Part shown: one piece after another, positions 7,750 to 34,837 of the stretch
Layout: each line of letters opens with the position of its first letter
Numbering within the stretch: position 1 is the stretch's first letter
Source of the DNA: a virus
Direction: 5' to 3' (one strand)
Length of the DNA: 36,462 nt
Virus record (IMG/VR): IMGVR_UViG_3300032092_002653
Span: 1-36,462 of that record
Translations under genes and position numbers: made by a program
Notes under the pieces: model-generated
Database searches by the model: none
Told to the model about the DNA's origin: nothing
Seen by the model: only the letters and a program-made list of their open reading frames with translations

Positions 7750-7756
7750 TTAGTAA

Positions 7757-9115: not shown

Positions 9116-9120
9116 AAAAT

Positions 9121-9561: not shown

Positions 9562-9651
9562 AATTTTGGTAATAAAGTTCTCATTATATAATTTTCTACC
9601 CACTTTTACTTATCTTCTCCTATAGTATTGTATACCATATGAATACAAAAA

Positions 9652-10472: not shown

Positions 10473-10492
10473 ATTCAATATTTCTTTTATTT

Positions 10493-10591
10493 TTAATACG
10501 TGTCCAAATAAGAATGAACAGTTCCTTTATCTCCACCACCCATATCAATTTTTACTGAGTATTTATTGTAACTATCTAATATCTTTTTCAT
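10493..10591 (-). pseudogene. N-terminal remnant of a class I methyltransferase-like gene
   Basis: A 32-codon reading frame starts at ATG 10591 and ends in TAA at 10493. It reads MKKILDSYNKYSVKIDMGGG and then DKGTVHSYLDTY. The Asp-Lys-Gly-Thr...His-Ser-Tyr block is the typical N-terminus of SAM-dependent methyltransferases in O-antigen and macrolide clusters, where it is followed by a helix and the SAM-binding glycine loop. Here all of that is missing. I read it as the stump of a deleted gene; a genuine 32-residue peptide is less likely. It fills the 160-base gap between two intact glycosyltransferase genes. Confidence 0.55.
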
Positions 10592-10631
10592 AATACTCAA
10601 ATACTTAATTATATTATTGATAATTACAACA

Positions 10632-11255
10632 CTATTTTTGTATTATTTTTTTTAATCCATCATAACTTTCAAAACACTTATTTATATCACTAAAATTTGG
10701 CATCTGCCAAGATAATTGATAATCATCAGCAGTTATCAAATAAGCAGATATCTCAGAATGTATATGTCCGTAAAAAGCATCAAATGGAATTTTCAAATTG
10801 GGTATTGTCTGTATTAAAAAATCGTATAGAGTATTTTTCACAGTATATGCATGTGCAGCATAAGTATGTGTTAATTTGTAAACATTATTTGTAACAGGCA
10901 ACAATCTACCTAAATGATTACCACCATAATACAACATATCCCAATTCGGGACATCTTCTATGTTTTTAGAAATCACATCTTTAAAATTTTCATGTAAAAC
11001 AACATCATCTTCAAATATAGTAACATGAGGTAATCCATCAGATTTTGCTTTTTTTATAATTTCTAAATGTGATAAACCACAAGCAATTATATTTTTATGC
11101 ATTTTTTTTGAGATATCTTCTAAAGAACTACCATCAATAGCGGAGAAACGTTCCACTTTTAAATTATGTTTTTCAAATTCTTTTTCAGCGTGTTCCCATC
11201 TATCAACACGATGATCCAAATTTATACAATAACAATTATCAAATATATTAATCAT
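10632..11255 (-). CDS. GT25 (LPS-type) glycosyltransferase
   Basis: A 207-residue protein of family GT25, which adds galactose or glucose in LPS and collagen-type glycans. Signatures: CINLDHRVDRW (10-20) at the N-terminus, RFSAIDG (36-42), ACGLSHLEII (58-67) and FEDDV (81-85), the acidic motif that binds the metal and UDP-sugar. Then WDMLYYGG and HAYTVKN follow as in the family. The length is normal for the short bacterial forms. The start overlaps the upstream gene by 8 nt, so the two are coupled. The protein has no membrane segment and would act in the cytoplasm. The family call is firm, the sugar is not. Confidence 0.88.
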   Translation of the reverse strand: MINIFDNCYCINLDHRVDRWEHAEKEFEKHNLKVERFSAIDGSSLEDISKKMHKNIIACGLSHLEIIKKAKSDGLPHVTIFEDDVVLHENFKDVISKNIEDVPNWDMLYYGGNHLGRLLPVTNNVYKLTHTYAAHAYTVKNTLYDFLIQTIPNLKIPFDAFYGHIHSEISAYLITADDYQLSWQMPNFSDINKCFESYDGLKKIIQK

Positions 11256-12066
11256 ACCAAATTTTAGGGTTATATTGTTCTTTATTTTTTTTCCAATTTT
11301 CTATTTTAACAAAAACATTTCTTTGAATATCTTGCCCATTTTTATATTCATTTTCTCTAATAATTATCGGCTCATAACCACACATTTCAGGAATAGATTT
11401 GAAAACTCCTTCAAAAAAATACCTATCAAATCCGCACAATTCATAGATATTTTTTTCAAAAAATCCATCAGAAATTTTGTGTATAAAATCATGAACTATG
11501 TCACCTCTCATTATATAATGAGTTCCACAATAAAAGAAACCAATTGGTTGATAAGACAATTTCAAATCTTTTTTAATTTTTAGAGAACTACTAATATGAT
11601 CATATACAGAAAAAACGCTAGGCTCATGTCCAATAATACCCACCATAGGATTATCCATAAAAAGTTTTTCATGTTTATTTATATTCAAACAAAAATCAGT
11701 CAACACCAAATTTCGATATTGCTCAGAGCTTTCAAAATTTTTATGTGATGAACCTTTGGTATGAAAAAAATAACAAGATGAATATTTGATATTCGATTTT
11801 TTTAAAATTTTTAAAGCTGTTATGAAACCACAAGAATCAGAATTTATTCTTATATTTTGTTGAACTTCTTCGTATCTATACTGTTTTATTTTGTCAAATA
11901 ACCATTCATCGACGATTCCATTCACTCCAATATACACATCAAAATTTTTAAAAAATTGATTTAAAAGATTGATATAAAAATCAATTACTAATTTATTTGT
12001 ATCAGATCCATTATAATATAATGAAAATAATACACAATTAGATTTTTGATCTGTAAATGTCTCCAT
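11248..12066 (-). CDS. Putative glycosyltransferase of unrecognised family (HTKGS motif)
   Basis: A 272-residue protein without a family I can name. Visible features: an N-terminal strand CVLFSLYYN; VYIGVNGI followed by YRYEEVQQN; SSCYFFHTKGSSHKNFES, where the His-Thr-Lys-Gly-Ser motif resembles the acceptor/donor loop of rhamnan-synthesis (RgpF-like) and related transferases; GIIGHEP; and IGFFYCGTHYIMRG followed by CGFDRYFFEGVF near the end. The arrangement is that of a GT-A-like enzyme, and all neighbours are glycosyltransferases. I chose ATG 12066 (METFTDQK), 17 nt past the upstream stop; the longer frame to 12132 would overlap the neighbour by 49 nt without added homology. Confidence 0.6.
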   Translation of the reverse strand: METFTDQKSNCVLFSLYYNGSDTNKLVIDFYINLLNQFFKNFDVYIGVNGIVDEWLFDKIKQYRYEEVQQNIRINSDSCGFITALKILKKSNIKYSSCYFFHTKGSSHKNFESSEQYRNLVLTDFCLNINKHEKLFMDNPMVGIIGHEPSVFSVYDHISSSLKIKKDLKLSYQPIGFFYCGTHYIMRGDIVHDFIHKISDGFFEKNIYELCGFDRYFFEGVFKSIPEMCGYEPIIIRENEYKNGQDIQRNVFVKIENWKKNKEQYNPKIWYD

Positions 12067-12083
12067 TTTTGTATTATTCAAAA

Positions 12084-12947
12084 TTATAAAATTCTCACAT
12101 TTTCGCGAGCAATTTGTTCCATTTTTGAACACAAATAATCATCAGATGATAGATATTTGTGAGCCAATTCGAAATTTTCTTTGATTGCATCTTTACGTTT
12201 ATAAAAATTATCATCATCCAATTTAATTTTTTCCAAATCATCAATCGAATTAAACATGATAAACCCATCGGTATTAAAAAATTTGTCGATATTCGGAGCA
12301 CCATAATAAATCGGCACACAACCAGTCACAAGACTATCGATAAGTTTTTCCGTGAAATAATATGGAGCAACAACATTTTCAATTACAAAATGATATTTAT
12401 ATTCCTTCAAACCATCAACTTTATTGTTAAGATATCCTTTTGTAGAACCCCACCCAAAAAAATCTATATCGGGTGGTTGAATTGACTGGATTTGATGTCT
12501 CAAAATATGTCCCGGAAAAAATTGTTTACCGGAAAGAATCATGGAACATTTTTTCGTCTTTATATCTTCATATAAAGATATTTCGTCATCAGCAACTAAT
12601 GCACCACCCGGAGAATTTGGATAAAACTTTTCTGGAAATTGATTTATCAAATCTTCTCTGTATGTGAATACATAATCAAATTTATGAGCGACTTTTTCTA
12701 TATTTCTATGTACATTAAGTTGAACCGCTGGAGATTCCAAACACCACGCAATTTTTATTTTCGAATTAACTTTATCAACTTCTGGAGATAAAATATAATC
12801 ATCTGTGAATAGTGTAACACCATCAAATTCATATTGTCTTTGGACAAATTTGATGGTTTGTGGTGGTCGTTTATCAGTAGACATCCAACATCCATAATCT
12901 TTCAAATGATGTTGGCATGTATTATCAAATATATTAACTGTTTTCAT
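12084..12947 (-). CDS. GT10 family alpha-1,3/4-fucosyltransferase-like protein
   Basis: A 287-residue protein with the GT10 core. YKYHFVIENV, VAPYYFTEKLIDSLVTGCVP and IYYGAPNIDKFF reproduce the conserved family block (F-x-x-x-x-E-N...Y-x-T-E-K...G-x-V-P-V-x-x-G). The N-terminal half has WCLESPAVQLN and FDYVFTYREDLI, matching the usual Trp...Glu-Ser-Pro segment. GT10 enzymes use GDP-fucose, so the operon carries two fucosyltransferase families (see GT11 at 7009). The start overlaps the stop of the upstream gene by 14 nt. GT10-like folds occasionally use other sugars, so the donor is inferred. Confidence 0.85.
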   Translation of the reverse strand: MKTVNIFDNTCQHHLKDYGCWMSTDKRPPQTIKFVQRQYEFDGVTLFTDDYILSPEVDKVNSKIKIAWCLESPAVQLNVHRNIEKVAHKFDYVFTYREDLINQFPEKFYPNSPGGALVADDEISLYEDIKTKKCSMILSGKQFFPGHILRHQIQSIQPPDIDFFGWGSTKGYLNNKVDGLKEYKYHFVIENVVAPYYFTEKLIDSLVTGCVPIYYGAPNIDKFFNTDGFIMFNSIDDLEKIKLDDDNFYKRKDAIKENFELAHKYLSSDDYLCSKMEQIARENVRIL

Positions 12948-13650
12948 AAATTTTTAAAATATCTTTTTCGTATTGATCTTCAACTTTTAAACCATACTCA
13001 TACAATTGTTTATTATTATGAGTTCCTCCAAAATCGATGTCGGTGTCTGGAGCTAAAGGATTATATTTTTTCGTTCTCCATGACATACCTTCGTAATGTT
13101 TGAAATATTTATTTTCCAATTGAACATTTGCAACTAATAAACCATTTTTCATTACATCTTCAAACATTGTTGAGCCGACATCATATACCCTAATCAATTG
13201 ACGAGATTTTTTCGTTCGCTCCTCATCAAAAAATTTGATATCATGATTCTTCAATTGGTGCAGATCCATGAAACAGAACCAAGGATCAACTCTAGGAAAT
13301 AATTTTTTCCCTCCACGATCACCTGATACATTACCCATCAATGCAAATCCTCCTTCCAAAAAGCGATTGTAAGGCTTATTACATTCATTTAGAATGAGAA
13401 CATCGGAATCGATTAGAAGCATGTATCTCGTGTCAACCAGACCCATAGCGATGTTCACCGCTCTCCCATGCGTCAGACCAGAAATATTAACTTGTGTGAT
13501 ATCTGGAAATTCATACTTCTCATTTATTGTCGAAGTATTTATGACAAGAATTTTCACATTTTCACCCATATGAAATCTAATACTACGTCGAAGATTTTTA
13601 ATCAAATTTGGAGTATTGTAATCACAGGTTACTATCGTTAAATCTTGCAT
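12934..13650 (-). CDS. GT2-like glycosyltransferase
   Basis: A 238-residue GT-A fold protein. MQDLTIVTCDYNTPNLIKNL is the typical first strand and helix, VKILVINTS the second strand, and YMLLIDSDVLIL (DSD at 81-83) the metal/nucleotide-sugar site. The gene also encodes VDPWFCFMDLHQLK and FKHYEGMSWRT. I start it at ATG 13650, 1 nt beyond the stop of the MazG-like gene (13652); the longer frame to 13776 would lie inside that gene. Mid-operon position. Substrate unknown. Confidence 0.78.
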   Translation of the reverse strand: MQDLTIVTCDYNTPNLIKNLRRSIRFHMGENVKILVINTSTINEKYEFPDITQVNISGLTHGRAVNIAMGLVDTRYMLLIDSDVLILNECNKPYNRFLEGGFALMGNVSGDRGGKKLFPRVDPWFCFMDLHQLKNHDIKFFDEERTKKSRQLIRVYDVGSTMFEDVMKNGLLVANVQLENKYFKHYEGMSWRTKKYNPLAPDTDIDFGGTHNNKQLYEYGLKVEDQYEKDILKIYENS

Positions 13651-13651
13651 A

Positions 13652-14002
13652 TCAAAATTTCTTTCCGTTTTCACTTCTACGTGCTTCATGAGAATGATCT
13701 TTTCTAGTCTTGTTATATTCCAATTTTTCCTCAAATGCTCCTTGGATATCGTATCCAAATCCTCCAACGTAATCAAGAATTCTGATTAGAGCATCTGCTA
13801 ATTCTACCTCTGCCATTTTTCTATGTGGCAATTTATCATCCATTAAATTTTTCCGTTCGCCCTCAAGTGCTTCCGAAATTTCGCTATGAATCAATGCCAA
13901 TAGTTCACCTTTATTTCTTTCGATTGGTTCACCTGTATTAATATCAGTCCACCATTTTTTATTGTTTTCAAATACTTGTTTTGCTAATTCATTTAAGTTC
14001 AT
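13652..14002 (-). CDS. MazG-like nucleotide pyrophosphohydrolase
   Basis: A 116-residue all-alpha protein. The two acidic helices that bind magnesium are HSEISEALEGERK (E41, E44, E47) and AEVELADALIRILDYV (E67, D70). Then come GYDIQGAFEEKLEYNKTR and DHSHEARRSENGKKF, the C-terminal tail common in phage MazG-like proteins. It would hydrolyse NTPs or dNTPs to monophosphates; in marine phages it is suspected of adjusting nucleotide pools or alarmones. It is flanked by glycosyltransferase genes, overlapping the upstream one by 14 nt, which is unusual company; it may act on a nucleotide by-product of the pathway or simply be a passenger. Confidence 0.82.
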   Translation of the reverse strand: MNLNELAKQVFENNKKWWTDINTGEPIERNKGELLALIHSEISEALEGERKNLMDDKLPHRKMAEVELADALIRILDYVGGFGYDIQGAFEEKLEYNKTRKDHSHEARRSENGKKF

Positions 14003-14828
14003 AATTTTTTTTAATTTCTTTTAAATTTTGATAAAATTGTTGCACACTCATTGTAGGTGTTTGCATCGGTAAATGACCATGTTTTTTCACAAAAATCTGA
14101 TCAGCTTCCATAACATTTTTTCTGAAATCTGGTGCTGAACAAATAGATGAAGTCTCAATAGACCATCCATCATCACCCAAATATTCATTGGAATTTTTAA
14201 TATCTGCAAAATACCAAAATGGTGGGTGCATTCCTTTTTTAATAATTTCATATGTATGATCAACATGTTCACATGCATTATAATAATCTTCATCCATCAA
14301 CCCACATTCTTCCAAACATTTTCGAGAATAATACGAAAATGCTCCTACACAATGTTGGTAAAATTCAATATTACATCCATCATAGTTCACCACATTATGA
14401 GGATTCGGTTTACCTTCTGATGTTTTATTTGCCAGACCGTGCTGAGAAAAATTAAAATGTTGAATACCAGATTTTTTAGATGCATCAATATATCTTTGAA
14501 ATACTGATTCATCTTTGATGAATATATCATCTTCGATCAAAAATATATGGTCACATCCTTTTTCTAAGAGAAATTTTAAAGCTTCATTTTTGGATTTACC
14601 AACTCCTAAATTTTTATTATGTTGTATAATTTCTTGGGGTGCTGAATAAAATGTTGGATTTGCCGAATACGGTTTACCATCATTGATGACCACAACTTCA
14701 TCCAATAAATGGGAACATTTCTCTAATGATTTCCAAGATTTCCAAAAAGTTTCTTCTCTGTTACATGTTACAATTCCAACTCCAATTTTTTCATTCATAT
14801 GTTTTATAGTATCATTATTATTACTCAT
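13989..14828 (-). CDS. GT2-like glycosyltransferase
   Basis: A 279-residue GT-A protein. IGVGIVTCNREETFWKSWKSL (from residue 15) is the first strand-helix, EVVVINDG (44-51) the second strand with the Asn-Asp-Gly motif, and FLIEDDIFI (97-105; EDD at 99-101) the metal site. The downstream CEHVDHTYEIIKKG, with a conserved His-Val-Asp, and the FADIKNSNEYLG segment resemble predicted glycosyltransferases of phage and capsule loci. The first 10 residues are polar; an internal ATG at residue 11 may be the real start. It overlaps the MazG-like gene by 14 nt and is 2 nt from the sulfotransferase-like gene. Confidence 0.78.
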   Translation of the reverse strand: MSNNNDTIKHMNEKIGVGIVTCNREETFWKSWKSLEKCSHLLDEVVVINDGKPYSANPTFYSAPQEIIQHNKNLGVGKSKNEALKFLLEKGCDHIFLIEDDIFIKDESVFQRYIDASKKSGIQHFNFSQHGLANKTSEGKPNPHNVVNYDGCNIEFYQHCVGAFSYYSRKCLEECGLMDEDYYNACEHVDHTYEIIKKGMHPPFWYFADIKNSNEYLGDDGWSIETSSICSAPDFRKNVMEADQIFVKKHGHLPMQTPTMSVQQFYQNLKEIKKNYELK

Positions 14829-14830
14829 GT

Positions 14831-15358
14831 CTAGACTTTTTCATCATTTTTCAGAAATTTGGTCATAAAATTATGTATTCTTTGATTATAAATTTCCGTC
14901 AATCTTAAACCTTTTTCAATGGAAAAATTATTTCTCAAATTTAAAGATTTTGCGACATCCAATGGTTTTCTATAACATACCACAAATTGAGGATTTTCTA
15001 AGAAAGGCATCCACAAATCTATTGTTAGACAAGTTCTTGGATCTTTAAATCCCCAACTTTCCAAACCCATTTTTTCAGCCTTTTCAATTTCTTTAGATAC
15101 GATACTTCGCATATCATCATCAAATACACCAGAACATTCCAATATTCTTTCTTCGCTTGGTGGATTGTCCCACCACCCTCCAGATTTAGCCAAAATTTTA
15201 TCATTTAATCGGATAATATCGACATTTTCATAATGACCTTTTGGATTATCTTTGAGACCACGTAATAAATTAGTTCCCATATTCACCTCTGAATGTAAAG
15301 TTCTGGCAACTAATGATGTTGCAGATCTATGCATCCCCAATACTACTATCGTTTTCAT
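14831..15358 (-). CDS. Sulfotransferase-family protein
   Basis: A 175-residue P-loop-like protein. GMHRSATSLVART (8-20) is the 5'-phosphosulfate-binding loop of PAPS-dependent sulfotransferases (usually GxxRSGTS). ESWGFKDPRTC and FVVCYRKPLDVAKSL supply the second part of the cofactor site, with Arg and Ser in the 3'-phosphate-binding positions. It is shorter than full-length family members (about 250-300 aa) but has both signature regions. In this context it would sulfate a sugar made by the neighbouring transferases; the sulfate donor would come from the host. It overlaps the next gene upstream by 32 nt. Confidence 0.75.
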   Translation of the reverse strand: MKTIVVLGMHRSATSLVARTLHSEVNMGTNLLRGLKDNPKGHYENVDIIRLNDKILAKSGGWWDNPPSEERILECSGVFDDDMRSIVSKEIEKAEKMGLESWGFKDPRTCLTIDLWMPFLENPQFVVCYRKPLDVAKSLNLRNNFSIEKGLRLTEIYNQRIHNFMTKFLKNDEKV

Positions 15359-16085
15359 GTAAATAATTTTTTAAGATTTCCATATAATCAACTTTCCATT
15401 TCGGTTCCAATTCAATGATCCCGCTAGGTATCTCACCATTATTCAATTGTTTCAACGTATGTTGGCGATAGATTTCTAATGCTTGATCTTGGTTTTCTTT
15501 TTTTGGTATTCCCGATAAATGGTATGATCTACCACCCCACATATAAAACCATGATACATCAGAATCATCTGGATCTGCTAAAACTTTACGACCCTTATGT
15601 TTATTAATTTTTTGGATAAATGCTGTGTCATATCCATAACTCATTTTCTCATGTTTACCAACATCTTCCCAAATTTTTTTGGTATATACAATACCAGATT
15701 GCCCCACAGATGTTATTTTCGATATTTTTGATCCATGTAATAATGCACCTTTTTTCCAGCTAAGTAGATCACAATCTTTGAACCATTTGTTAATATTACT
15801 CAAATGATTTGGTAGAGCAACATCATCATCATCCCATACCGCAATAATTGGATATTTGCATTGATCTATTGTAAAATTTTCCTTCTCACCTAATGTTTCA
15901 AATCTATTTTTGATATTAAAAATTTTTACATCTGGGTGGTCAAATTTTAATTCTTGAAATTCACAATCATTAACTATAATCAATTCCCTTTCGCCATCAT
16001 ATTCTTGATTTAAGAATGAATATATAGATTCTTCTAAAGTCTTTACTCTAGCATTTGTAATACATTTACAAGATATTTTCAACAT
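15327..16085 (-). CDS. GT2-like glycosyltransferase
   Basis: A 252-residue GT-A enzyme of family GT2. The motifs in order are KISCKCITNARVKTLEESI (first strand and helix), SFLNQEYDGERELIIVND (second strand) and PIIAVWDDDDVALPNHL (78-94), where the four aspartates (85-88) form the metal site. DVGKHEKMSYGYDTAFIQKI follows as the acceptor-side region. The next gene starts inside its 3' end with a 32-nt overlap, tight packing that favours co-translation. It is 5 nt downstream of the NadR-like kinase gene. Donor and acceptor unknown. Confidence 0.82.
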   Translation of the reverse strand: MLKISCKCITNARVKTLEESIYSFLNQEYDGERELIIVNDCEFQELKFDHPDVKIFNIKNRFETLGEKENFTIDQCKYPIIAVWDDDDVALPNHLSNINKWFKDCDLLSWKKGALLHGSKISKITSVGQSGIVYTKKIWEDVGKHEKMSYGYDTAFIQKINKHKGRKVLADPDDSDVSWFYMWGGRSYHLSGIPKKENQDQALEIYRQHTLKQLNNGEIPSGIIELEPKWKVDYMEILKNYLHENDSSIGDA

Positions 16086-17671: not shown

Positions 17672-17857
17672 CTACTTCGTACCCCAAGAAGTTCCATCAA
17701 ACCAGCCTATACCTTTATTATTGTGTAGTGGCGCAGGTTTTTTGACTTTGCTTGGGATGATTTCCTCTGGTTCAACTTCAAGAGGTTTATCCACCACATC
17801 TGTAGGTTTTACAATTTTAAAATTTTCATCCTCTTCTGTTTTAATTTCTACTTTCAC
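17672..17857 (-). CDS. Small late hypothetical protein, 61 aa, GTG start
   Basis: A small acidic, proline-rich protein (EEDENFKIV, EVEPEEIIPSK) ending in GIGWFDGTSWGTK, a short Trp/Gly motif that may be a structured tail. I do not recognise it. The start is a GTG at 17855-17857, chosen because a TTAAATA late element lies exactly 5 nt upstream, the same spacing as at seven other late genes. It is convergent with phoH, the two stop codons being adjacent. Confidence 0.6.
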   Translation of the reverse strand: MKVEIKTEEDENFKIVKPTDVVDKPLEVEPEEIIPSKVKKPAPLHNNKGIGWFDGTSWGTK

Positions 17858-17919: not shown

Positions 17920-18474
17920 TTAAGATTTTTTTGGAGGAGTAGTAGGTGGAGGAGTAGATGGAGGAGTAGTAGGTGGAGGAGTAGATGGAGGAGTAGTAGG
18001 TGGCGGAGTAGAAGATCCTGATCCAGATTTATTGTCTTTTTTTACCTTGTGGGTATAATCTCTATCTCTTGGTCTATCAATTATTTTTAATTGGTTATTG
18101 GCATCCCTTTGAATAATAAGTCTAGGATAAGCATATGGTCTACCAGCTTGAGGTTCTCCTTTTTCATTATAATCTAAAGCACTCGCATCAAAAACATATA
18201 TTCTATTACCATCTTTAGATTTATGACCTTTAATTTCACTAGTAGGAAAATATCCACTATCTATAGCATAATCGTATAAAAACTTTTTATCGTTTGTATT
18301 AAGTTTGTAAGCTTGTGTAACGTCCTTAACATTTTGCTTAATACTACTAATAGCTTGCGTGGTCTGTGGCAACACTTTAGATGCAATTTGTTTAGTAGCT
18401 GCACCAAGTCCACTCGCAACAGTTTTAAATTTACCCCAAAAACTTTCTGATAATAAATCTTTTTGTGTTATCAT
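17920..18474 (-). CDS. Late protein with candidate prohead-targeting N-terminus and Pro/Thr repeat tail
   Basis: A 184-residue protein I do not recognise. The N-terminus MITQKDLLSESFWG has a Leu-Ser-Glu site (8-10) resembling gp21 prohead-protease cleavage sites. The middle (about 70-140) contains DYAIDSGYFPTSEIKGH, YVFDASALDYNEKGEPQAGR and PRLIIQRDANNQLKII, a small beta-rich domain. The last 35 residues are a Gly/Ser linker followed by Pro/Thr/Ser repeats encoded by a 27-bp tandem repeat, which should be an extended, flexible tail. The start overlaps the stop of the upstream gene (ATGA), so it is translationally coupled in a late operon. A head-internal or surface role is inferred. Confidence 0.65.
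   Translation of the reverse strand: MITQKDLLSESFWGKFKTVASGLGAATKQIASKVLPQTTQAISSIKQNVKDVTQAYKLNTNDKKFLYDYAIDSGYFPTSEIKGHKSKDGNRIYVFDASALDYNEKGEPQAGRPYAYPRLIIQRDANNQLKIIDRPRDRDYTHKVKKDNKSGSGSSTPPPTTPPSTPPPTTPPSTPPPTTPPKKS
17933..18013. repeat. Three tandem copies of a 27-bp unit
   Basis: Units begin at 17933, 17960 and 17987; the first two are identical and the third differs near its end. On the coding (minus) strand each gives nine residues of the type TPPPTTPPS. Each unit is itself built of near-identical 15- and 12-bp halves. Copy number is likely to vary between isolates. Confidence 0.9.
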
Positions 18475-18911
18475 ACATTAACCTCCATATTTTTATCTGC
18501 AACATCAGTTAATGCAACATCAATTAATGCATCAAGTTGGTGTTGGATGAAATTTTTTCCGATAAGAACTTTATGAATATTTTCTGATCTGTTACCGATG
18601 CTGAATGGTATATTAGGGAATTTTCTTCCACCTATCACACAATCAAAAAGACACACAGGTCTTTCTTCTTTATTTCCAGCACCCAAATTGATGGTGATCA
18701 TTTCTTCTATAGGTTTTTCTAAAACAAAGTTATTCATAGTGGTAAATCGGACAGTATTTTTATCAATTTTCAAATCTTCTCCGTGTAAAACATTGTATGC
18801 ACCATTACCAGTGTCTAATTTGGCACGTATAGTCCCTAGACCATCTAGAGTAATATCCTCTTCCAGTCCTAAGACATATTTTTCTACAAAGAATTTTTTG
18901 AAACTTTTCAT
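18471..18911 (-). CDS. Retropepsin-like (RimK-associated Zn_protease family) late protein
   Basis: A 146-residue protein resembling PF05618 (putative ATP-dependent zinc protease, retropepsin-like fold). The sequence GLGTIRAKLDTGNGAYNVLHG holds the Asp-Thr-Gly triad (33-35), and FDCVIGGRKFPNIPFSIGN followed by HKVLIGKNFIQHQLDALID gives the later strands with the Leu-Ile-Gly-Lys-x-Phe block. The first 18 residues, MKSFKKFFVEKYVLGLEE, look like a T4 capsid-targeting sequence ending at a Leu-Glu-Glu site, after which the domain starts. If cleaved in the prohead, this would be a packaged aspartic-protease-like protein. Catalysis is not proven; many family members have no shown activity. ATGA overlaps occur at both ends. 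Confidence 0.68.
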   Translation of the reverse strand: MKSFKKFFVEKYVLGLEEDITLDGLGTIRAKLDTGNGAYNVLHGEDLKIDKNTVRFTTMNNFVLEKPIEEMITINLGAGNKEERPVCLFDCVIGGRKFPNIPFSIGNRSENIHKVLIGKNFIQHQLDALIDVALTDVADKNMEVNV

Positions 18912-19351
18912 CCATTACAATGTTCGTGATCAGATGCTTGTTCGAATCCTGTGTTGGCGAAATCTGCACCAGCATCCAATCGATGCCAAATTTCAGAAGT
19001 ATAATCAGATGCCTTCACAATTTTCGCCACCATCCACGCATCAAATTCAACTTTTCCACATAAATCTTGCAAACGTTTACTATATTCAGCCAATTTTTTC
19101 AGTTCGGTTGCCATGATCTCATTCATATGGCTATCACCAATTGGTTCTGATTTACCGATAGGTTCCATCGACATTATTACTGTCGAATGATGATCGTCAT
19201 CCATCCCATAATCATCATCGTCATCCATTTCATGCTCCTCATGGTCATCATCTTCATCATCCATGTCAAAGTCCATTTCGTTTTCAAAGTCTTCTTCTGG
19301 GGATGAATACATTTCCCAAATCAATTCCGATTCATGTTTCGTAGTCTTCAT
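18908..19351 (-). CDS. Acidic late virion-associated protein
   Basis: A 147-residue protein with an extremely acidic first half (about residues 19-55, runs of Asp/Glu with several His). The C-terminal half (about 80-140) reads KKLAEYSKRLQDLCGKVE, then FDAWMVAKIVKASDYTSEIW. This matches a short helical domain seen in many cyanophage structural or hypothetical proteins (AW...KI..ASDY.....HYL). The N-terminus has an Ile-Trp-Glu site (11-13) in a position suitable for prohead-protease cleavage. A highly acidic internal head protein could occupy scaffold space or ride with DNA. A late promoter with 5-nt spacing is present. Function is otherwise unknown. Confidence 0.68.
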   Translation of the reverse strand: MKTTKHESELIWEMYSSPEEDFENEMDFDMDDEDDDHEEHEMDDDDDYGMDDDHHSTVIMSMEPIGKSEPIGDSHMNEIMATELKKLAEYSKRLQDLCGKVEFDAWMVAKIVKASDYTSEIWHRLDAGADFANTGFEQASDHEHCNG

Positions 19352-19356
19352 TTCAG

Positions 19357-19363
19357 TATTTAG
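19357..19363 (-). promoter_or_regulatory. Late promoter of the acidic protein gene (CTAAATA)
   Basis: Leftward CTAAATA, 5 nt, ATG at 19351. It overlaps the stop codon of the upstream gene at 19360. Confidence 0.68.
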
Positions 19364-19740
19364 TTTATTTTGTCCAAATCATCTCGAAGAGAATCTTCTT
19401 CAGTAGAAGGTCGAATAAGAGTCAATATATTCGGTAAAATTTCTTCTCTAGCATTTTTAAATTTTTTCATACTCATAACACTTTGAAGATTGGTTAGGAT
19501 TCTTCTTTCTTCTGGTGTCGGTTCAAAAAGTGCTGCTGATATCAAATCAGATATGTAGCTATTTTCCGCTTCAGAAGTTAAAGGAACTTCTTCTTGTGAT
19601 ACTTGTTCTGGATCATCCATAACATCTGCACCAGCTTCTCCACCAGTGGTATCAAATTCTTGAACGTCTTCAGGATTTTGCTCATCCTGTTCACGTAGAA
19701 TTCTATAATAATGATCAATTAATTTTAAGGTTTTTTTCAT
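19360..19740 (-). CDS. Late hypothetical protein, 126 aa, candidate head-internal protein
   Basis: I do not recognise a family. The N-terminus MKKTLKLIDHYYRILREQDE is basic-hydrophobic and contains a Leu-Arg-Glu site (15-17). It is followed by an acidic low-complexity stretch (about 18-60) and then a helical part (YISDLISAALFEPTPEERRILTNL). This layout, a targeting peptide, acidic linker and small helical domain, repeats in its neighbours. The ATG is 4 nt after the upstream stop codon, so translation is probably coupled. It is transcribed from the late promoter at 20212. Confidence 0.6.
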   Translation of the reverse strand: MKKTLKLIDHYYRILREQDEQNPEDVQEFDTTGGEAGADVMDDPEQVSQEEVPLTSEAENSYISDLISAALFEPTPEERRILTNLQSVMSMKKFKNAREEILPNILTLIRPSTEEDSLRDDLDKIN

Positions 19741-19744
19741 ATGA

Positions 19745-20206
19745 TTAATAAGTTGTTTTCATTGATGTTCTTCTGAGATTTGAAAGGGCTTTTTCAATTC
19801 TCTGCGTTCCTTTATCATAAGCATCAACTGCTTTTTTGGCTACATTTTGACGTTTTTTTACAGCACTTTTAGCTTTTTGTGCAGAAGTTCCAAATAATTT
19901 TGCAGCCATTCCTTTTAAACCGCTTGAAGCAGTAGCTCCCAATTTTTCAACTTCTTTATCAACTTCATATGTTCCTGTTCCCACATTTACACTTTCTTCA
20001 TCTTCTGCATCAACATCGGAATCTTTTTCAAATGAGATAACCTTTAAAGTAGCTACACCATATTCGGTAGGAATTTTAATCATATCACCATCACCACTGA
20101 ACGGAATTTCTGCCTCACTTAAAACTTGCTTAATCCATAAAGCAGCTTCTTGAGTATCTTGATTGGATGGATCGAATTGTTCACACAATTTCAAAAATTT
20201 ATTCAT
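19745..20206 (-). CDS. Late hypothetical protein, 153 aa, basic C-terminus
   Basis: A protein of unknown family. MNKFLKLCEQFDPS holds a Leu-Cys-Glu site (7-9) like the prohead-protease motif. Residues 20-55 look like a small alpha/beta domain (AALWIKQVLSEAEIPF, then VATLKVISFEKD), 60-75 are acidic, and 88-150 are Ala/Lys-rich and helical (AAKLFGTSAQKAKSAVKKRQ and onward). A lysine-rich tail suggests DNA binding inside the head. A late promoter lies 5 nt upstream of the ATG. Confidence 0.62.
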   Translation of the reverse strand: MNKFLKLCEQFDPSNQDTQEAALWIKQVLSEAEIPFSGDGDMIKIPTEYGVATLKVISFEKDSDVDAEDEESVNVGTGTYEVDKEVEKLGATASSGLKGMAAKLFGTSAQKAKSAVKKRQNVAKKAVDAYDKGTQRIEKALSNLRRTSMKTTY

Positions 20207-20211
20207 ATTCC

Positions 20212-20218
20212 TATTTAA
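20212..20218 (-). promoter_or_regulatory. Late promoter (TTAAATA) of the 153-aa gene
   Basis: Leftward TTAAATA, 5 nt, ATG at 20206. It overlaps the last codons of the upstream gene (stop at 20215). Confidence 0.66.
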
Positions 20219-20751
20219 TGCATCAGTATTGACATTTTGTTACTTATGTTATCAACACATTCGTCATACAAATAAAACAATCCTTCTTTCTCCAAGAATT
20301 TTTTAATTTTGCGAAAATTCTTACCATTCCTTGTCATCAAAAATGAATCTACGATTTCGACCTGTTCCGAATATCCCTTTTCATAAAAATAAATCAATGT
20401 CGATAAATCCATTCCAGAATCCAATAGAGAAATGCCAAATATCGATTTCAATTTTTTGATGAAAGGATTTTGGAAATCATTCGATATCAACTCACATCGA
20501 AAAAAATAAATCGGATAATCATTTTTCTTCAACATTTGAATGTATGTCTTCACTAATTCATTGAAAAAGAATCTTTTGTTTGTTCGATTTTTGAAATTGA
20601 AACTTATATCCAAACCAAAATTTTCCAATGTTTGTTTGTATGATTGAATACTTTCATCGAAAATGCATTGTATATCAATGATCGATTTCCTTTTCTCATG
20701 TAAATTAACTTGAGTCAGATATTGGTTACTGATTCTTTCAATGCTCTTCAC
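20215..20751 (-). CDS. Late hypothetical protein, 178 aa
   Basis: I do not recognise this protein. It is rich in Phe, Lys, Asn and Ile. The N-terminal 20 residues (MKSIERISNQYLTQVNLHEK) include a Leu-His-Glu triplet, weaker evidence for a targeting peptide than in its neighbours. The centre is predicted to be helical (KRFFFNELVKTYIQMLKKND) and the end reads KKFLEKEGLFYLYDECVDNI. The start overlaps the stop of the GIY-YIG-like gene by 4 nt (ATGA). It shares the late promoter at 21197. Confidence 0.6.
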   Translation of the reverse strand: MKSIERISNQYLTQVNLHEKRKSIIDIQCIFDESIQSYKQTLENFGLDISFNFKNRTNKRFFFNELVKTYIQMLKKNDYPIYFFRCELISNDFQNPFIKKLKSIFGISLLDSGMDLSTLIYFYEKGYSEQVEIVDSFLMTRNGKNFRKIKKFLEKEGLFYLYDECVDNISNKMSILMH

Positions 20752-21191
20752 AATTTCAAGGTATCAGGATTTCTCTCAATGTCAACATAGTCCTTTGGAA
20801 TTACCCCTAAACGAACGTTCAGCATGTTGTTATAAAATCTCTCGTCAATCAAAGCGTTACATTTTATTTGCCATTGTAATTCTGCATACTTGCAATGAAA
20901 TTTTGAGTAACACAACTCGATCACTTCTCTGCTGAAATAACCTATACCATACTTCTCAATATCTGTCAATAGCCTTTTTGAAGATCCCCAATATTTCTCA
21001 ACATCATTGTCCACGAACGATATTCGATTCTTGCTTTTGCCTTTGAGTGGTTTTCTCTTCACTCTCTTCAGCAACTGCTTTGTCCCGATGTAGTAACGTT
21101 GTTTTGCATCTGGATGATGATTCCTGATCAAATAAGTGATGCCGAAAACCTTAGTCGTATCCTCTGGCATGTTGATCCATTCTTGTCCCAT
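20748..21191 (-). CDS. GIY-YIG-like endonuclease-type protein
   Basis: A 147-residue protein whose pattern recalls the phage GIY-YIG-like nucleases. FGITYLIRN and QRYYIGTKQLL stand in for the GIY and YIG strands. YWGSSKRLLTDIEKYG, then FSREVIEL, then CKYAELQWQIKCNAL with the catalytic-position Glu, and FYNNMLNVRLG with the terminal Tyr-Asn, follow in the family order. Such proteins occur in many T4-like phages as stand-alone homing-type endonucleases. However, this one has a late promoter 5 nt upstream and heads a run of presumed virion genes, which is unusual for a homing enzyme and suggests a maturation role. No DNA-binding tail is seen. Confidence 0.62.
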   Translation of the reverse strand: MGQEWINMPEDTTKVFGITYLIRNHHPDAKQRYYIGTKQLLKRVKRKPLKGKSKNRISFVDNDVEKYWGSSKRLLTDIEKYGIGYFSREVIELCYSKFHCKYAELQWQIKCNALIDERFYNNMLNVRLGVIPKDYVDIERNPDTLKL

Positions 21192-21196
21192 GCTCG

Positions 21197-21203
21197 TATT
21201 TAG
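21197..21203 (-). promoter_or_regulatory. Late promoter (CTAAATA) of the GIY-YIG-like gene
   Basis: Leftward CTAAATA, 5 nt, ATG at 21191. Confidence 0.68.
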
Positions 21204-21224
21204 CGCGAAATTTTTTCCAAAAAG

Positions 21225-21241
21225 TTGGCACGGTTCGTGCT
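21225..21241 (+). promoter_or_regulatory. Sigma54-like -24/-12 sequence containing a GCACG/CGTGC palindrome
   Basis: TTGGCACGGTTCGTGCT matches the sigma54 consensus (YTGGCACGrNNNTTGCW) at all but one defined position, with the GG and GC dinucleotides exactly 10 nt apart. The same bases form a perfect 5-bp palindrome with a 3-nt loop (21228-21240). No gene starts close downstream on the plus strand, so this may be an operator or a weak leftward terminator instead. Confidence 0.35.
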
Positions 21242-21288
21242 ATATTAAGATATAGTAAGGATATTATTAAGATTCCTTATTAATCTCC

Positions 21289-21316
21289 TTGACATTCCTA
21301 ATCTTCCGGTTAAAGT
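21289..21316 (+). promoter_or_regulatory. Early-type promoter facing the non-coding region
   Basis: TTGACA (21289-21294), 16-nt spacer, TAAAGT (21311-21316). The architecture equals that of the early gene promoters, but only a 9-codon frame follows (ATG at 21332), so it would make an untranslated RNA or a long leader. Confidence 0.5.
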
Positions 21317-21482
21317 TAATTAGAATTGATTATGATTAATAATAATGATATTCTATTTTAAAATGTAATTTCTTTTTTCTTTGTTTTCATCATACATCTT
21401 AAACACATCAATCGATAATCATTATATATTGATTAAAGATTAACTAGAACAAATTTTTTTCAATTATTTTTTATTATACCGG

Positions 21483-21532
21483 TTGACTTATTAAATTTGG
21501 TGAATACATACGGGTATGGAGTGAGGGTGGGG
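21483..21532 (+). promoter_or_regulatory. Promoter-like pair followed by a G-rich tract
   Basis: TTGACT (21483-21488), 16 nt, TACATA (21505-21510), then four G-runs within 21 nt (21512-14, 21518-19, 21525-27, 21529-32) that could form a G-quadruplex in RNA or in the non-template strand. An ATG at 21516 is followed after one codon by TGA, so no protein is made here. Confidence 0.4.
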
Positions 21533-21581
21533 TCCATTAATAATATACAATATTAGTTAATTATATATGGAAAAATTGAAA

Positions 21582-21806
21582 TCACTTCCTCCTTTTTTTA
21601 CCGTTTTTCTTACCAACTCTGCCTTTTCTTGATACGATACCCAATCCAAAAGGATTTCTCATGTCTCCTTCGGCATAATTATCTTTGTTTGCTATTCCCA
21701 TTTCAAAACCACTACCACCCAAAACTGCCGCTGATGACATATTTTCCTGTAACATTGATTCGTAAATTTCTTCAATATTTTGTTGATCTGATCTTGACAA
21801 TTTCAT
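21582..21806 (-). CDS. Small late protein, 74 aa, candidate head-internal protein
   Basis: A small protein with an N-terminal helix containing Ile-Tyr-Glu (14-16) and Leu-Gln-Glu (19-21) sites, then a Ser/Ala/Gly-rich segment (MSSAAVLGGSGFEMG) and a strongly basic end (SRKGRVGKKNGKKRRK). The pattern of a cleavable N-terminal helix followed by a basic peptide resembles small T4 prohead-core and internal proteins, but I cannot name a homologue. The late promoter ATAAATA lies exactly 5 nt upstream and overlaps the divergent uvsY promoter. Confidence 0.62.
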   Translation of the reverse strand: MKLSRSDQQNIEEIYESMLQENMSSAAVLGGSGFEMGIANKDNYAEGDMRNPFGLGIVSRKGRVGKKNGKKRRK

Positions 21807-21821
21807 ATCATTATTTATGAT
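21794..21821 (+). promoter_or_regulatory. Early promoter of the uvsY-uvsW-55-47-46 operon
   Basis: TTGACA (21794-21799), 16-nt spacer, TATGAT (21816-21821). The uvsY ATG is at 21846, so unlike other early genes here it has a leader of roughly 17 nt with a weak purine-rich GAAGAAAA. The -35 lies inside the 5' end of the divergent late gene and the -10 overlaps its late promoter. Confidence 0.72.
21812..21818 (-). promoter_or_regulatory. Late promoter (ATAAATA) of the 74-aa gene
   Basis: Leftward ATAAATA, 5 nt, ATG at 21806. It shares bases with the -10 box of the rightward uvsY promoter, so the two polymerase forms cannot bind together. Confidence 0.68.
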
Positions 21822-26927: not shown

Positions 26928-28112
26928 ATGATCAATACGCCTTTCGTATCACCGTTTCCACAAGCTTTTCCTCAAGTGATGACTATCAATAATCCTAAAA
27001 AGGATAAAGGTAATGTGTATTTGAATCTGTTAGCAGATCATGGTGGTTGCGGTTTTTATCGTATTATTTTCCCCGAAATTCAGATCAATATGAGTAATTT
27101 GGGGCAATCGACATCTCTATGCAAGATGATTCTGAATAAAGATTTCTTCCACGATGTCAAAGTCGTAAAATTACAAAGACAAGCAGCATCCCATCAAAAG
27201 GAATATGTCAGATGGTTGAAATCCATTCAAAGTGAAATGCAATTTAAATTGATTTATGAGGTGGATGATGTCGTATTCCATGAGGAAATTCCCGATTACA
27301 ATGTTTACAAAGAAGCATTTGCTGATAACGAAACTCGTCAAAATTGTATTGACATGATCAATATGGTGGATGAAGTTACTGTGCCATGCAAATACATGAG
27401 AGACCTTTATATTGAAAAAACAGGTAAGAAAGAGATATCTGCCGTGCCTAATTTCCATCCTGAATGGTGGATTGGGAATCATTATGATCTTCATAAGAAG
27501 ATTGCATTATACGAAAAAAATAAAAAGAAACCAAGAATTTTGTATGCTGGTTCTGGAGCGCATTTTGATGTTAAGAATTTGGCAGGTTTCGATGATTTCT
27601 CACATGTGATGAAATTTATCATTGATAATGTTGACAAATATCAATTCATTTTCATTGGAGCATATCCTCCAGCACTCAAACCTTTTGTGGATGCTGGAAA
27701 AATAGAATTCCATCCATGGCAGAATTTGATGAACTATCCAAAATTCTTGGACTCATTGAATGCTCAATTGTTCCTCGCGCCTTTACACGATAATCGTTTT
27801 AATAGATCAAAATCAGATATCAAATATGTTGAAGCGGCAGCATTAGGTGTTCCATGTATGTGTCAAGATATGGTGACTTATCAAGATGTTCCAGATTTCT
27901 TGAAATTCAATAATTCAGATGATCTCGCTGAAAAAGTAGAAAATCTTTTGAATTGGAAGAATAGTAAAAAATATTTCAAATTGCTTCCCGAATTGAGGAA
28001 AATTGGTGAAAGCAGATTCTTGGAAAGACCAGAAAATATCGGTGCTTTCATGGAGAGTCTGAATACTGAATACGGCTCAGTAATGCGAAAATATATGCTA
28101 CCTTGGAATTAA
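26928..28112 (+). CDS. GT-B type glycosyltransferase (GT4-like)
   Basis: A 394-residue glycosyltransferase. LADHGGCGFYRIIFPEIQ near the N-terminus, FKLIYEVDDVVFHEEIPD, and a DEVTVPCKYMRDLYIEKTG strand-helix come from the first Rossmann domain; KPRILYAGSGAHFDVKNL, YQFIFIGAYPP, FLAPLHDNRFNRSKSDIKYVEAAALG-type residues and VPCMCQDMVTY from the second, nucleotide-sugar-binding domain. Similar proteins are common in marine T4-like phages, placed among replication genes. The length equals T4 alpha-glucosyltransferase (400 aa), so glycosylation of modified DNA bases is possible, but I see no base-modifying hydroxymethylase in the window. Protein or surface-glycan targets are alternatives. Confidence 0.82.
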   Translation: MINTPFVSPFPQAFPQVMTINNPKKDKGNVYLNLLADHGGCGFYRIIFPEIQINMSNLGQSTSLCKMILNKDFFHDVKVVKLQRQAASHQKEYVRWLKSIQSEMQFKLIYEVDDVVFHEEIPDYNVYKEAFADNETRQNCIDMINMVDEVTVPCKYMRDLYIEKTGKKEISAVPNFHPEWWIGNHYDLHKKIALYEKNKKKPRILYAGSGAHFDVKNLAGFDDFSHVMKFIIDNVDKYQFIFIGAYPPALKPFVDAGKIEFHPWQNLMNYPKFLDSLNAQLFLAPLHDNRFNRSKSDIKYVEAAALGVPCMCQDMVTYQDVPDFLKFNNSDDLAEKVENLLNWKNSKKYFKLLPELRKIGESRFLERPENIGAFMESLNTEYGSVMRKYMLPWN

Positions 28113-28360
28113 TACCCAATTTCTTCGTATTGGTCATATTGTCCAATATCTGGTGATGCTTTAGATATGCCGAAAAATTTCAATCTGTCATTTTCCCATT
28201 CTGGTGGGATTATGTCAGCAAAATTTAAATTTTTATCGAAAGAAATTTTCTGTTTTTTGTCCAAGTTCACAACGACATGTGATTTAGTTTCCATATCATC
28301 GAAGAAATTGTTTAAATTTTCGTAGATATTTTGAAGATTTTTTTGATCGTTTGTGAACAT
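28109..28360 (-). CDS. Small late hypothetical protein, 83 aa
   Basis: An 83-residue acidic protein I do not recognise. The N-terminal half is a charged helix (NDQKNLQNIYENLNNFFDDM) and the second half has a short strand (HVVVNLDKKQKISF) and a Pro-Pro-Glu-Trp motif. It runs against its neighbours and overlaps the stop of the glycosyltransferase gene by 4 nt. It has a late element (TTAAATA) exactly 5 nt before the ATG, so it is a lone late gene inserted in the replication block, likely a small virion or assembly protein. Confidence 0.6.
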   Translation of the reverse strand: MFTNDQKNLQNIYENLNNFFDDMETKSHVVVNLDKKQKISFDKNLNFADIIPPEWENDRLKFFGISKASPDIGQYDQYEEIGY

Positions 28361-32674: not shown

Positions 32675-33410
32675 AGAAGGTATTCATCTGTTTCATGGGG
32701 ATTGCTTGGAAGTTCTAAAAAAGCTTCCAAGCAATTCTATTGATTTGGTTTTAGCTGATCCACCATATGGCGTATTGAAATATAATACGCATTGGGATAA
32801 TGTCATAGATTTAGATATTTTATGGAGTGAACTGAATCGAGTAAAAAAACAAAAAACTCCCATATTATTATTTGCACAACAACCATATGCTTCAGCATTG
32901 GTGAGCAGTAATTTAAAACAATTTAAATATGAATGGGTCTGGGATAAGCACATTTCAAGGGGTATGCAATCAGCTAAATTTAAACCAATGGTTAGGCATG
33001 AAAGCATTTTGGTATTTGGTGATAAAGGTCATAATTATTACCCTATAATGGTAGAACGTGATAAGCCTATAAAAAGAAAATTGTATAAGAAAGATGATAC
33101 ATATTTCCATGGGGAAAATGATGGCGAATATCGAACATATACACACAAAAATCCCGAAACAATTTTGACTGGTTTTTGGGAAAAAAATAAAGGAAAAGTC
33201 CATCCAACACAAAAACCAGTTTCATTGTTGGAATATTTGATTAAAACTTATTCAAAAGAAGAAGATATTGTATTAAATTTTTGTTTTGGATCTAATTCCA
33301 CAGGAGTAGCGGCATATAATACCAATAGAAAATATATAGGAATCGAAAAAGATCCCATTTTCTTTGAGATTGGTAAAAACAGACTTCAAGAATTGATAGA
33401 TAACCAGTGA
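32664..33410 (+). CDS. DNA methyltransferase, N4/N6 (beta-class order)
   Basis: A 248-residue DNA methyltransferase of the N6_N4_Mtase family. Motif IV, LADPPYG (D32-PPY), is N-terminal and the SAM-binding motif I, NFCFGSNSTGVAA, is C-terminal, the beta-class order. HPTQKPVSLLEYLI, found just before motif I in these enzymes, is intact. The usual F-x-G-S-G-S-T is F-G-S-N-S-T here, a change that may still bind SAM. No restriction partner is visible, so it is a solitary enzyme, perhaps protecting against host restriction. The start is uncertain: GTG 32664 is best by homology; TTG 32643 is also in frame. It overlaps uvsX by 11 nt. Confidence 0.88.
   Translation: MKIEEGIHLFHGDCLEVLKKLPSNSIDLVLADPPYGVLKYNTHWDNVIDLDILWSELNRVKKQKTPILLFAQQPYASALVSSNLKQFKYEWVWDKHISRGMQSAKFKPMVRHESILVFGDKGHNYYPIMVERDKPIKRKLYKKDDTYFHGENDGEYRTYTHKNPETILTGFWEKNKGKVHPTQKPVSLLEYLIKTYSKEEDIVLNFCFGSNSTGVAAYNTNRKYIGIEKDPIFFEIGKNRLQELIDNQ
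32701..32735. repeat. Perfect 12-bp inverted repeat inside the methyltransferase gene
   Basis: ATTGCTTGGAAG (32701-32712) and CTTCCAAGCAAT (32724-32735) are exact reverse complements around an 11-nt loop. It begins 37 nt into the methyltransferase frame and 27 nt after the uvsX stop. No T-run follows. In mRNA it would be one of the strongest hairpins in this AT-rich region and could protect the uvsX 3' end or limit ribosome passage; in DNA it is a possible operator. Confidence 0.75.
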
Positions 33411-34825
33411 TGATAATTCACTGGTTTTTTGAAACCTCTATCTTTATACTCACCGATGGTGTGTAATAAACCGTCTTTCTTGACTTGTTCAGCCATGTAA
33501 GACATCACACCAACTTCTTCATCTTCATCTTCATCATCTTCAATATTTGAAGATTTTCTTTTATTTTTTGAAGAACTCTTTTTCGATTCTCTTTCTTCTT
33601 TAGCTTTTTCTGACTCGTATTTTCTAAGAGCTTTTAAATCTTCACGAGAATCCATGTCATATTCGTCATCTACCGATAGACCAGCTTGCTTTCTATTCAT
33701 TGCAACTTCTTTCTTTTCCAAGTTTTCTGCGCTTTGAATCAAATCTTTCCATTTCAGAACAATATCAATTTCTGGTTTAGTGATGATACCTTTAGCTTCA
33801 ATATCATTTAAAAGACTTGGAGTATAGATATCCAACACACTTTCAATTGCTTTTTTCTGATCATCGATTATTTCTTCAGAAACTCCTTTAGTTTCTCTCG
33901 ATTCCAAATCAGTTTCGTATTCATCTAATAGATATTCTGCAATTTCTTCTGGAAATCGATTGATGACATTTTTTATTATTTTGTCTTTTGATAAAGGTTG
34001 AGAATTATTTAAACGGTCTTGTAGAATTTTCAATGTTTTTCTAGCTTCTTCAACATTTACACTATAGTATTCGACTAAATCGACATCATCTACAAGACTC
34101 ATTAAAGTTTCAACGAAAGTATCTAAAGGTACCATTTCTTCAGAAACATTTACTCCAGTATCTTGTGAAATAATAATCTTTTCATTTCTTCTAAGAGCTT
34201 GAAGTGCTCCCGCAGGAAGTAATGACCTACTTTTCCTATTAATTTTGACTATAATAGGCGATACTTCAGCTTTCATAGTTGCAAAATCATCTGCACTCAT
34301 GGAATATTTTGATTGTATTTTATTTTGATATCCCTTTGCTCTGCTTCGGAATTCTGCTTTATCAGACATGGATGCTCTGTAATTTTTTACATATTCCTCA
34401 TCTGTAATTTTATCTAAAAATTGTTGAGACAAAATTTTATTTGGGATCTTATTTGCCAAATAAGATAAAACATATTGATTTCTTTTATTACTGTCTTCCG
34501 AACCTCCTCGAATGAAATCTAAATAATCATCATAGAAACCATCGACAGTATCTTTGAGTGTTTTAAATAATTTTTCAACACTGGAATATGTGTATGTGGT
34601 TTTAAACACTTCTTCGTATAGTGCTTCCACGATAAAATCGTTGAGAGTTTTGGAAGGTGATGGTGGCGACCATTTTTCGAAAATCTTTTTCGCTATGAAT
34701 TTTCTACCTTCCTTCATAAATTTTGCGACTTTTTCATTTTCTTCTGGTCGTGTAGTGGATGGTCTAGCCATTTCTTTAATGACTTCCACTTTTTCTACCA
34801 AATAATCGAATCCGTAATTTCTCAT
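33386..34825 (-). CDS. Large late protein of unknown function, 479 aa
   Basis: A 479-residue, mainly helical, highly charged protein that I do not recognise. Residues 30-290 form several helical segments (KEGRKFIAKKIFEKW, YQNKIQSKYSMSADDFATM, PIIVKINRKSRSLL). Residues 385-440 are low-complexity Lys/Glu/Ser followed by an acidic run, and the last 40 residues include a MSYMAEQVKKDGLLHTIGEY helix. A Leu-Val-Glu site (9-11) lies near the N-terminus. A late element stands 5 nt before the ATG, so a virion, scaffold or assembly protein is likely. It is convergent with and overlaps the methyltransferase gene by 25 nt. Confidence 0.7.
   Translation of the reverse strand: MRNYGFDYLVEKVEVIKEMARPSTTRPEENEKVAKFMKEGRKFIAKKIFEKWSPPSPSKTLNDFIVEALYEEVFKTTYTYSSVEKLFKTLKDTVDGFYDDYLDFIRGGSEDSNKRNQYVLSYLANKIPNKILSQQFLDKITDEEYVKNYRASMSDKAEFRSRAKGYQNKIQSKYSMSADDFATMKAEVSPIIVKINRKSRSLLPAGALQALRRNEKIIISQDTGVNVSEEMVPLDTFVETLMSLVDDVDLVEYYSVNVEEARKTLKILQDRLNNSQPLSKDKIIKNVINRFPEEIAEYLLDEYETDLESRETKGVSEEIIDDQKKAIESVLDIYTPSLLNDIEAKGIITKPEIDIVLKWKDLIQSAENLEKKEVAMNRKQAGLSVDDEYDMDSREDLKALRKYESEKAKEERESKKSSSKNKRKSSNIEDDEDEDEEVGVMSYMAEQVKKDGLLHTIGEYKDRGFKKPVNYHHWLSINS
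33402..33430 (+). terminator. Rho-independent terminator of the rightward transcript
   Basis: AACCAGTGA (33402-33410), a 7-nt loop and TCACTGGTT (33418-33426) followed by TTTT. It terminates the uvsX-methyltransferase transcript. The left arm contains the methyltransferase stop codon, and the whole hairpin lies within the C-terminal codons of the convergent late gene (33386-34825), so one sequence serves as terminator and as code on both strands. Confidence 0.85.
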
Positions 34826-34830
34826 ATTTG

Positions 34831-34837
34831 TATTTAA
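34831..34837 (-). promoter_or_regulatory. Late promoter (TTAAATA) of the 479-aa gene
   Basis: Leftward TTAAATA, 5 nt, ATG at 34825. The rightward early promoter starts 9 nt away at 34846. Confidence 0.68.

Follow-up and report, generated by a model that had tools for sequence, protein, structure and literature searches.

Predicted capsid-targeting leaders on a block of late genes in an uncultured T4-like myophage

The capsid-targeting sequence (CTS) of phage T4 has been known since 1996, chiefly from T4's own internal proteins. Genetic analysis of MKTYQEFIAEA assigned residues 4 and 7 to targeting and residues 8 and 10 to processing (PMC9026906). Here we describe a block of genes in a 36,462-nucleotide (nt) stretch of an uncultured T4-like myophage (IMG/VR record IMGVR_UViG_3300032092_002653; "the window" hereafter), all on the minus strand, in one cluster near phoH and uvsW. 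We propose, with a probability of roughly three in four for the block as a whole, that late proteins encoded there carry N-terminal propeptides which load them into the prohead and are then cut off by a gp21-type protease. The six proteins concerned are named by the position of their start codon (18474, 18911, 19351, 19740, 20206 and 21806) and other genes by their low coordinate; features are collected in Table 1.

A first-pass annotation of the window had described adjacent late genes with short basic-hydrophobic N-termini, each carrying an L/I-x-E triplet within about 21 residues, and had read these as prohead-targeting peptides with gp21 sites. The six minus-strand open reading frames (ORFs) and their triplets were found where it had placed them: LSE at residues 8-10, LEE at 16-18, IWE at 11-13, LRE at 15-17, LCE at 7-9 and LQE at 19-21, in the order of the proteins given above. 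Of the proteins of three relatives, about 22% have an [LI]xE within their first 21 residues. When the six were shuffled with composition kept, a mean of 1.3 of six had the motif, and all six had it in 0.02% of trials (P about 0.0002), a value that is weak on its own because the genes had been chosen for having the motif. Homologs are syntenic in 20 IMG/VR loci, and 80 loci were retrieved with the 18911 protein. Among distinct N-termini, a hydrophobic-x-E stood at the aligned place in a fraction of 0.98 for 18474 (n = 42), 1.00 for 18911 (n = 46), 0.89 for 19351 (n = 57), 1.00 for 19740 (n = 39), 1.00 for 20206 (n = 23) and 1.00 for 21806 (n = 15), compared with 0.44 and 0.35 for 20215 and 20748, two genes inside the block that served as internal controls. 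Loss of the site in relatives, which the first-pass annotation had counted as a possible refutation, was thus not seen, the site being kept in 89-100% of 15-57 distinct N-termini per family. Elsewhere in the window, comparable conservation of a triplet of this kind was confined to two genes, 33386 and 6176 (three relatives). Two parts of the original description need correction: the genes are not strictly adjacent, with 20215 and 20748 lying between them without a conserved site, and the leaders are basic in three of the six cases (net charge -1 for 18474, +2 for 18911, -1 for 19351, +3 for 19740, +1 for 20206 and -3 for 21806).

In the 18911 protein, residues 13-140 match PF05618 (33.6 bits; curated cut-off 27), and the best Foldseek matches of the protein's AlphaFold model (me9bc9ca948da) were RloA (9g58; E = 6.5e-9, TM 0.69/0.76), Lpg0085 (2pma) and RloA2 (9g59). 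D33 and G35 are invariant in 27 sequences of the family, which carry DTG or DSG. In the model residues 1-8 have low confidence and strand 1 spans residues 12-22. The LEE triplet singled out by the first-pass annotation aligns with GLNE of the bacterial enzyme 9g58, is therefore part of the fold, and was abandoned as a cleavage site. The likely site is FVE at residues 8-10, and the real tag is probably MKSFKKFFVE/K (the slash marks the predicted cut), which matches MKTYQEFIAE/A of T4 IPIII at the genetically mapped residues 4, 7, 8 and 10. In 41 distinct N-termini of the family, F4 and the glutamate are invariant, position 7 is F or Y, position 8 is F or I, and positions 2, 3 and 9 vary; in ten of the 41 one residue is missing and the glutamate stands at 9. 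On its sequence the 18911 family would belong with the T4 CTS system.

The mature domain resembles the bacterial retropepsin-like proteases RimB and RloA (9g58, 9g59, 2pma; PMC11957791) in fold and DTG motif. The phage copy differs from these in being standalone and leader-bearing and in lacking a RimK partner: RimK (PF08443) had no match in the window or in four relatives, for which reason we dropped the idea that here the protease acts together with packaged RimK, and call the enzyme RimB/RloA-like only, not RimB proper (active on poly-glutamylated S6). In other myophages, a RimK-RimB hybrid of Mosig EXVC030M (L067:3008-4393) begins MQVQPFKNYLEE, which is CTS-like, and the RimK of Melnitz-3 (L079:82-1131) begins LTQKFSQFITEE and looks tagged. 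The RimK-RimB hybrid of YerA41 (L078:2351-3772) is without a T4-type leader and is annotated as 'structural protein', an annotation whose bearing on the protease family is suggestive.

The register itself stood out. In three relatives (G001-G003), [FY]xxhhxE (h, hydrophobic) matched ten times with the glutamate at residue 10, and no other of 60 positions had more than three matches; protease orthologs account for three of the ten, which leaves about eight families. The same scan of T4 returned only IPII and IPIII at E10. The peak recurs in all other loci (15 and 35 versus at most 5 elsewhere), in counts inflated by repeated families. Four relatives encode gp21 (PF03420) and gp23 (PF07068), and gp23 cleavage sites of relatives, predicted by position relative to T4, read CLEE/SG, CIEE/AG and CFQE/SN, so that P3, the third residue before the cut, could plausibly be F, L or I. 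Five of the six leaders end in [LI]xE and that of 18911 in F-V-E, F being also the P3 residue of one of these gp23 sites. Similar sites begin gp21 (LIAE) and gp22 (LFSE or LFTE) of the relatives. The first-pass annotation had proposed comparing the leaders with the phage's own capsid sites; for the phage group, the predicted gp23 sites of the relatives match them.

Late expression of the block, also claimed earlier, was borne out by a promoter motif, [ACT]TAAATA, which starts 12 nt upstream of the start codons of 19351, 20206, 21191 (gene 20748) and 21806. It directly precedes three of the six tagged genes as well as 20748, and the remaining three tagged genes follow close behind in the same operon. 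Three relatives show a peak of the motif at 10-19 nt ahead of their genes (46, 62 and 38 occurrences versus about 3 per 10-nt bin), and it precedes gp21 in all three and gp22 in two. Within the window it also lies before genes 768, 5662, 16931, 28109 and 33386, and before none of the plus-strand replication genes. The T4 consensus late promoter, TATAAATA, was considered and set aside, being rare here, and [ACT]TAAATA was used in its place. An [LIF]xE at residues 6-12 was found in 51 of 178 promoter-proximal late genes (29%) versus 75 of 647 in the comparison group (12%; p = 1.1e-7), with no enrichment of hydrophobic-x-E in promoter-proximal late genes in a control stretch (p = 0.81).

The remaining leaders fit the T4 register to different degrees. 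The register is shifted in 19740, whose YxxILxE fits [FY]xxhhxE, and in 21806; 20206 has the register in part, and neither 18474 nor 19351 has an aromatic residue at the equivalent place. The 18474 family shares [ST]Q[KR]xLLxE/G in 98% of 42 distinct, syntenic N-termini. In one group of relatives (L004-L017) the leader of the 20206 family is tandemly duplicated (SKFLKLIEEHDPA...SKFLEILEQYDPA) with the site kept in both copies. Immediately beyond the predicted gp23 site, gp23 and the 21806 family look alike (21806 family AGIFGATTAAGSG..GDNYAAGDSRLPKIL versus gp23 AGIMGGAPTSG..VDGFAAGDTRIPKIL); the best pair in the relatives scores 82, compared with 43 for the next, unrelated proteome piece. The evidence is strongest for 18911 (exact T4 determinants), 21806 (likeness to the gp23 cleavage region) and 18474 ([ST]QKELLxE/G), and good if less specific for 20206, 19740 and 19351. 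A 60-amino-acid (aa) ORF of one relative (G002:129037-129219) also contains part of the N-arm sequence of gp23 (KLPKILIPMIRRTFPEIISAEI) and weakly matches the gp23 Pfam model.

Table 1. Features of the late-gene block and of one candidate gene outside it (window coordinates; slash, predicted cut; pI, isoelectric point)
Feature	Position	Strand	Remarks
18474, 184-aa late protein	17920..18474	-	Predicted propeptide MITQKDLLSE/S at 18445-18474; mature part basic, pI 9.8, Pro/Thr-rich tail
18911, 146-aa retropepsin-like protease	18471..18911	-	PF05618, RimB/RloA fold; DTG motif kept; likely CTS at 18882-18911
LEE 16-18 of 18911	18858..18866	-	Implausible as cleavage site; within beta-strand 1
19351, 147-aa acidic late protein	18908..19351	-	Predicted propeptide MKTTKHESELIWE/M at 19313-19351; mature pI 4.1
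19740, 126-aa acidic late protein	19360..19740	-	Predicted propeptide MKKTLKLIDHYYRILRE/Q at 19690-19740; mature pI 4.1
20206, 153-aa late protein	19745..20206	-	Mixed-charge; predicted propeptide MNKFLKLCE/Q at 20180-20206
20215, 178-aa block gene	20215..20751	-	Internal control; chance LHE
20748, SegE-like GIY-YIG protein	20748..21191	-	PF19835; internal control
21806, 74-aa late protein	21582..21806	-	Predicted propeptide ...IYESMLQE/N at 21744-21806; mature peptide very basic, pI 10.7
gp23 N-arm-like segment of 21806, GIANKDNYAEGDMRNP	21651..21698	-	gp23 counterpart follows predicted gp23 cleavage site
Late promoter CTAAATA before 19351	19357..19363	-	
Late promoter TTAAATA before 20206	20212..20218	-	
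Late promoter CTAAATA before 21191 (gene 20748)	21197..21203	-	
Late promoter ATAAATA before 21806	21812..21818	-	
33386, 479-aa late protein	33386..34825	-	Candidate outside block; starts MRNYGFDYLVEKVEVIKE/MARP at 34772-34825; TTAAATA at 34831-34837

In relatives, the same kind of leader stands on unrelated proteins. Between the 19740-like and 19351-like genes, distant relatives have leader-bearing genes for an adenylyltransferase-like protein (CTP_transf_like), a DUF6267 protein and further proteins without assignment, and after the protease a tagged protein with a weak NTP_transf_2 match. Cyanophage homologs of the DUF6267 protein and of the cytidylyltransferase begin directly at the domain, and the leader is therefore an add-on. 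The CCA-adding enzymes of this clade are also leader-bearing, most of them with a late promoter. For the six proteins of the window, a PHROGs search that included divergent members gave nothing significant, and PHROG and Pfam together left five of the six without a significant family; when INPHARED phages were searched at the DNA level, neither the block nor the gp23 region of a relative had a match.

In the proposed mechanism, leaders of about 9-21 residues on at least six products of the operon would act as CTSs, each binding the prohead core and drawing its late protein in. The phage's gp21-type protease would then cut after hydrophobic-x-E, the mature protein would stay inside the head with the DNA, and some mature proteins may be injected into the host. 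The putative cargo comprises the protease (18911), a gp23-N-arm-like basic peptide (21806), a basic protein (18474), two very acidic proteins (19351 and 19740) and one of mixed charge (20206). From the leaders and their context we infer that the products bind the core, are cleaved and end up in the virion, and that some are injected.

That chance triplets at ordinary N-termini account for the pattern is very improbable. The base rate of 22% and the position of the chosen 18911 triplet, which indeed lies within a folded domain, speak for coincidence; conservation in six families with controls, the E10 peak, the association with late genes and the T4 control speak against it. A different possibility is that the leaders do target the core but that several products, in the first place the acidic 19351 and 19740, serve there as core or scaffold like gp67/gp68 and are then degraded and lost, being neither cargo nor injected. 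The mature pI of both proteins agrees with this, gp67 and gp68 being T4 core proteins and T4 gp67 likewise strongly acidic; in addition, no gp67 or gp68 homolog was noticed beside gp21 and gp22 in the relatives, in a comparison that was not exhaustive. Such a role misfits the protease and the tagged enzymes of the relatives; we hold it to be less likely than not overall, yet a real alternative for 19351 and 19740. Finally, the leaders might be docking helices that are never cleaved, with the glutamate kept for binding and the proteins packaged with intact N-termini. In T4, Asp at position 10 stops processing and not targeting (PMC9026906), and the residue after the cut (P1') is Lys in most of the 18911 family, versus Ala or Ser at the predicted gp23 sites. 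We nevertheless hold this to be unlikely: an invariant glutamate with a hydrophobic residue two before it and a variable residue between is the gp21 pattern, and the 21806 site coincides with the place of gp23's own predicted site.

Several observations weigh against targeting followed by gp21-type cleavage, including the Lys at P1' just mentioned. Hydrophobic-x-E is a weak motif, and across all 115 ortholog triplets its conserved occurrences showed no N-terminal excess, for which reason merely counting triplets does not serve as evidence. Aromatic residues in the register of 4 and 7 do not fit the leaders of 19351 and 20206. The 36-kb window itself contains no gp21, gp22 or gp23, the nearest cultured isolates are distant (gp23 about 34% identical to the best listed), and nothing on virion proteomics of the phage group turned up. 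The case rests on register, conservation and lateness, not on the triplet itself. The earlier prohead-targeting and gp21-site interpretation stands on conservation, the T4 register, the predicted gp23 sites, the late promoters and the tag on unrelated enzymes, with one of its six sites reassigned.

A wider reading is that, in uncultured T4-like phages, a single short tag allows a large payload of clade-specific enzymes to be plugged into one loading system (the retropepsin-like protease, the adenylyltransferase-like enzyme, the DUF6267 protein, the CCA-adding enzyme, the NTP_transf_2 protein and others), which would enter the host with the DNA and act on translation, tRNA and NAD metabolism or host defences before phage gene expression. 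We put this forward tentatively, as a real possibility that we do not yet favour. If loading by leaders is correct, virion payloads would be predictable from sequence by late promoter plus leader, many hypothetical late genes would gain testable functions, and phages would seem to bring in proteases and enzymes acting on RNA or NAD together with their DNA.

Outside the block, 33386 is a further candidate. Its start is CTS-like (YGFDYLVE, then IKE/MA), and E18 is kept in all three relatives compared, in which the rest of the protein is 22-26% identical; a related-locus search with 33386 found no relative. An 83-aa gene with a late promoter (28109-28360, minus strand) lies amid the plus-strand replication genes; the DQKNLQNIYE at the start of its product is similar to the leader of 21806. 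Adjoining the block, at 7009-16085 (minus strand), is a run of genes with N-termini resembling glycosyltransferases and a sulfotransferase-like protein. A tail, WF[DA]GTSWG, is common to a 61-aa protein of the window (17672-17857, minus strand) and to QueD-like-looking proteins of about 215-225 aa in relatives (L124:6666-7313, L160:6654-7301 and L157:4613-5290, the last with WFDGTTWG); near phoH, unrelated proteins thus end in a shared motif.

Among described systems, phage P1 DarB (PMC9024508) has an N-terminal signal sufficient for head loading, the role proposed here for the leaders; it belongs to another phage, and 30 residues were used. The ejection proteins of phiKZ and SPN3US are likewise many processed head-internal proteins cut after Glu by a gp21-like prohead protease, but the phiKZ motif is S/A-x-E and the propeptides are mostly long, unlike T4-type leaders. 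T4 Alt, a packaged ADP-ribosyltransferase (ART) cut by gp21, offers the precedent of an enzyme carried by a short leader of gp21 type, which is what we propose for the protease; no ART domain was found in the block. The closest parallel is with T4 IPI, IPII and IPIII, which share the N-terminal leader of about 10-20 residues, late expression, mutually unrelated mature parts and, in the relatives, a gp21 homolog; the exact register of F/Y4, aromatic 7, hydrophobic 8 and E10 recurs in the 18911 family. No cargo homology to the T4 proteins was seen, no direct comparison with them having been run. The genes here form one block near phoH and uvsW, with several leader types, some without the aromatic residue at position 4, and the cargo is of another kind: here it includes a retropepsin-like protease, to which relatives add nucleotidyltransferases, DUF6267 and a CCA-adding enzyme. 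T4's four-position grammar recurs, in the same register, on unrelated enzymes of uncultured T4-like phages.

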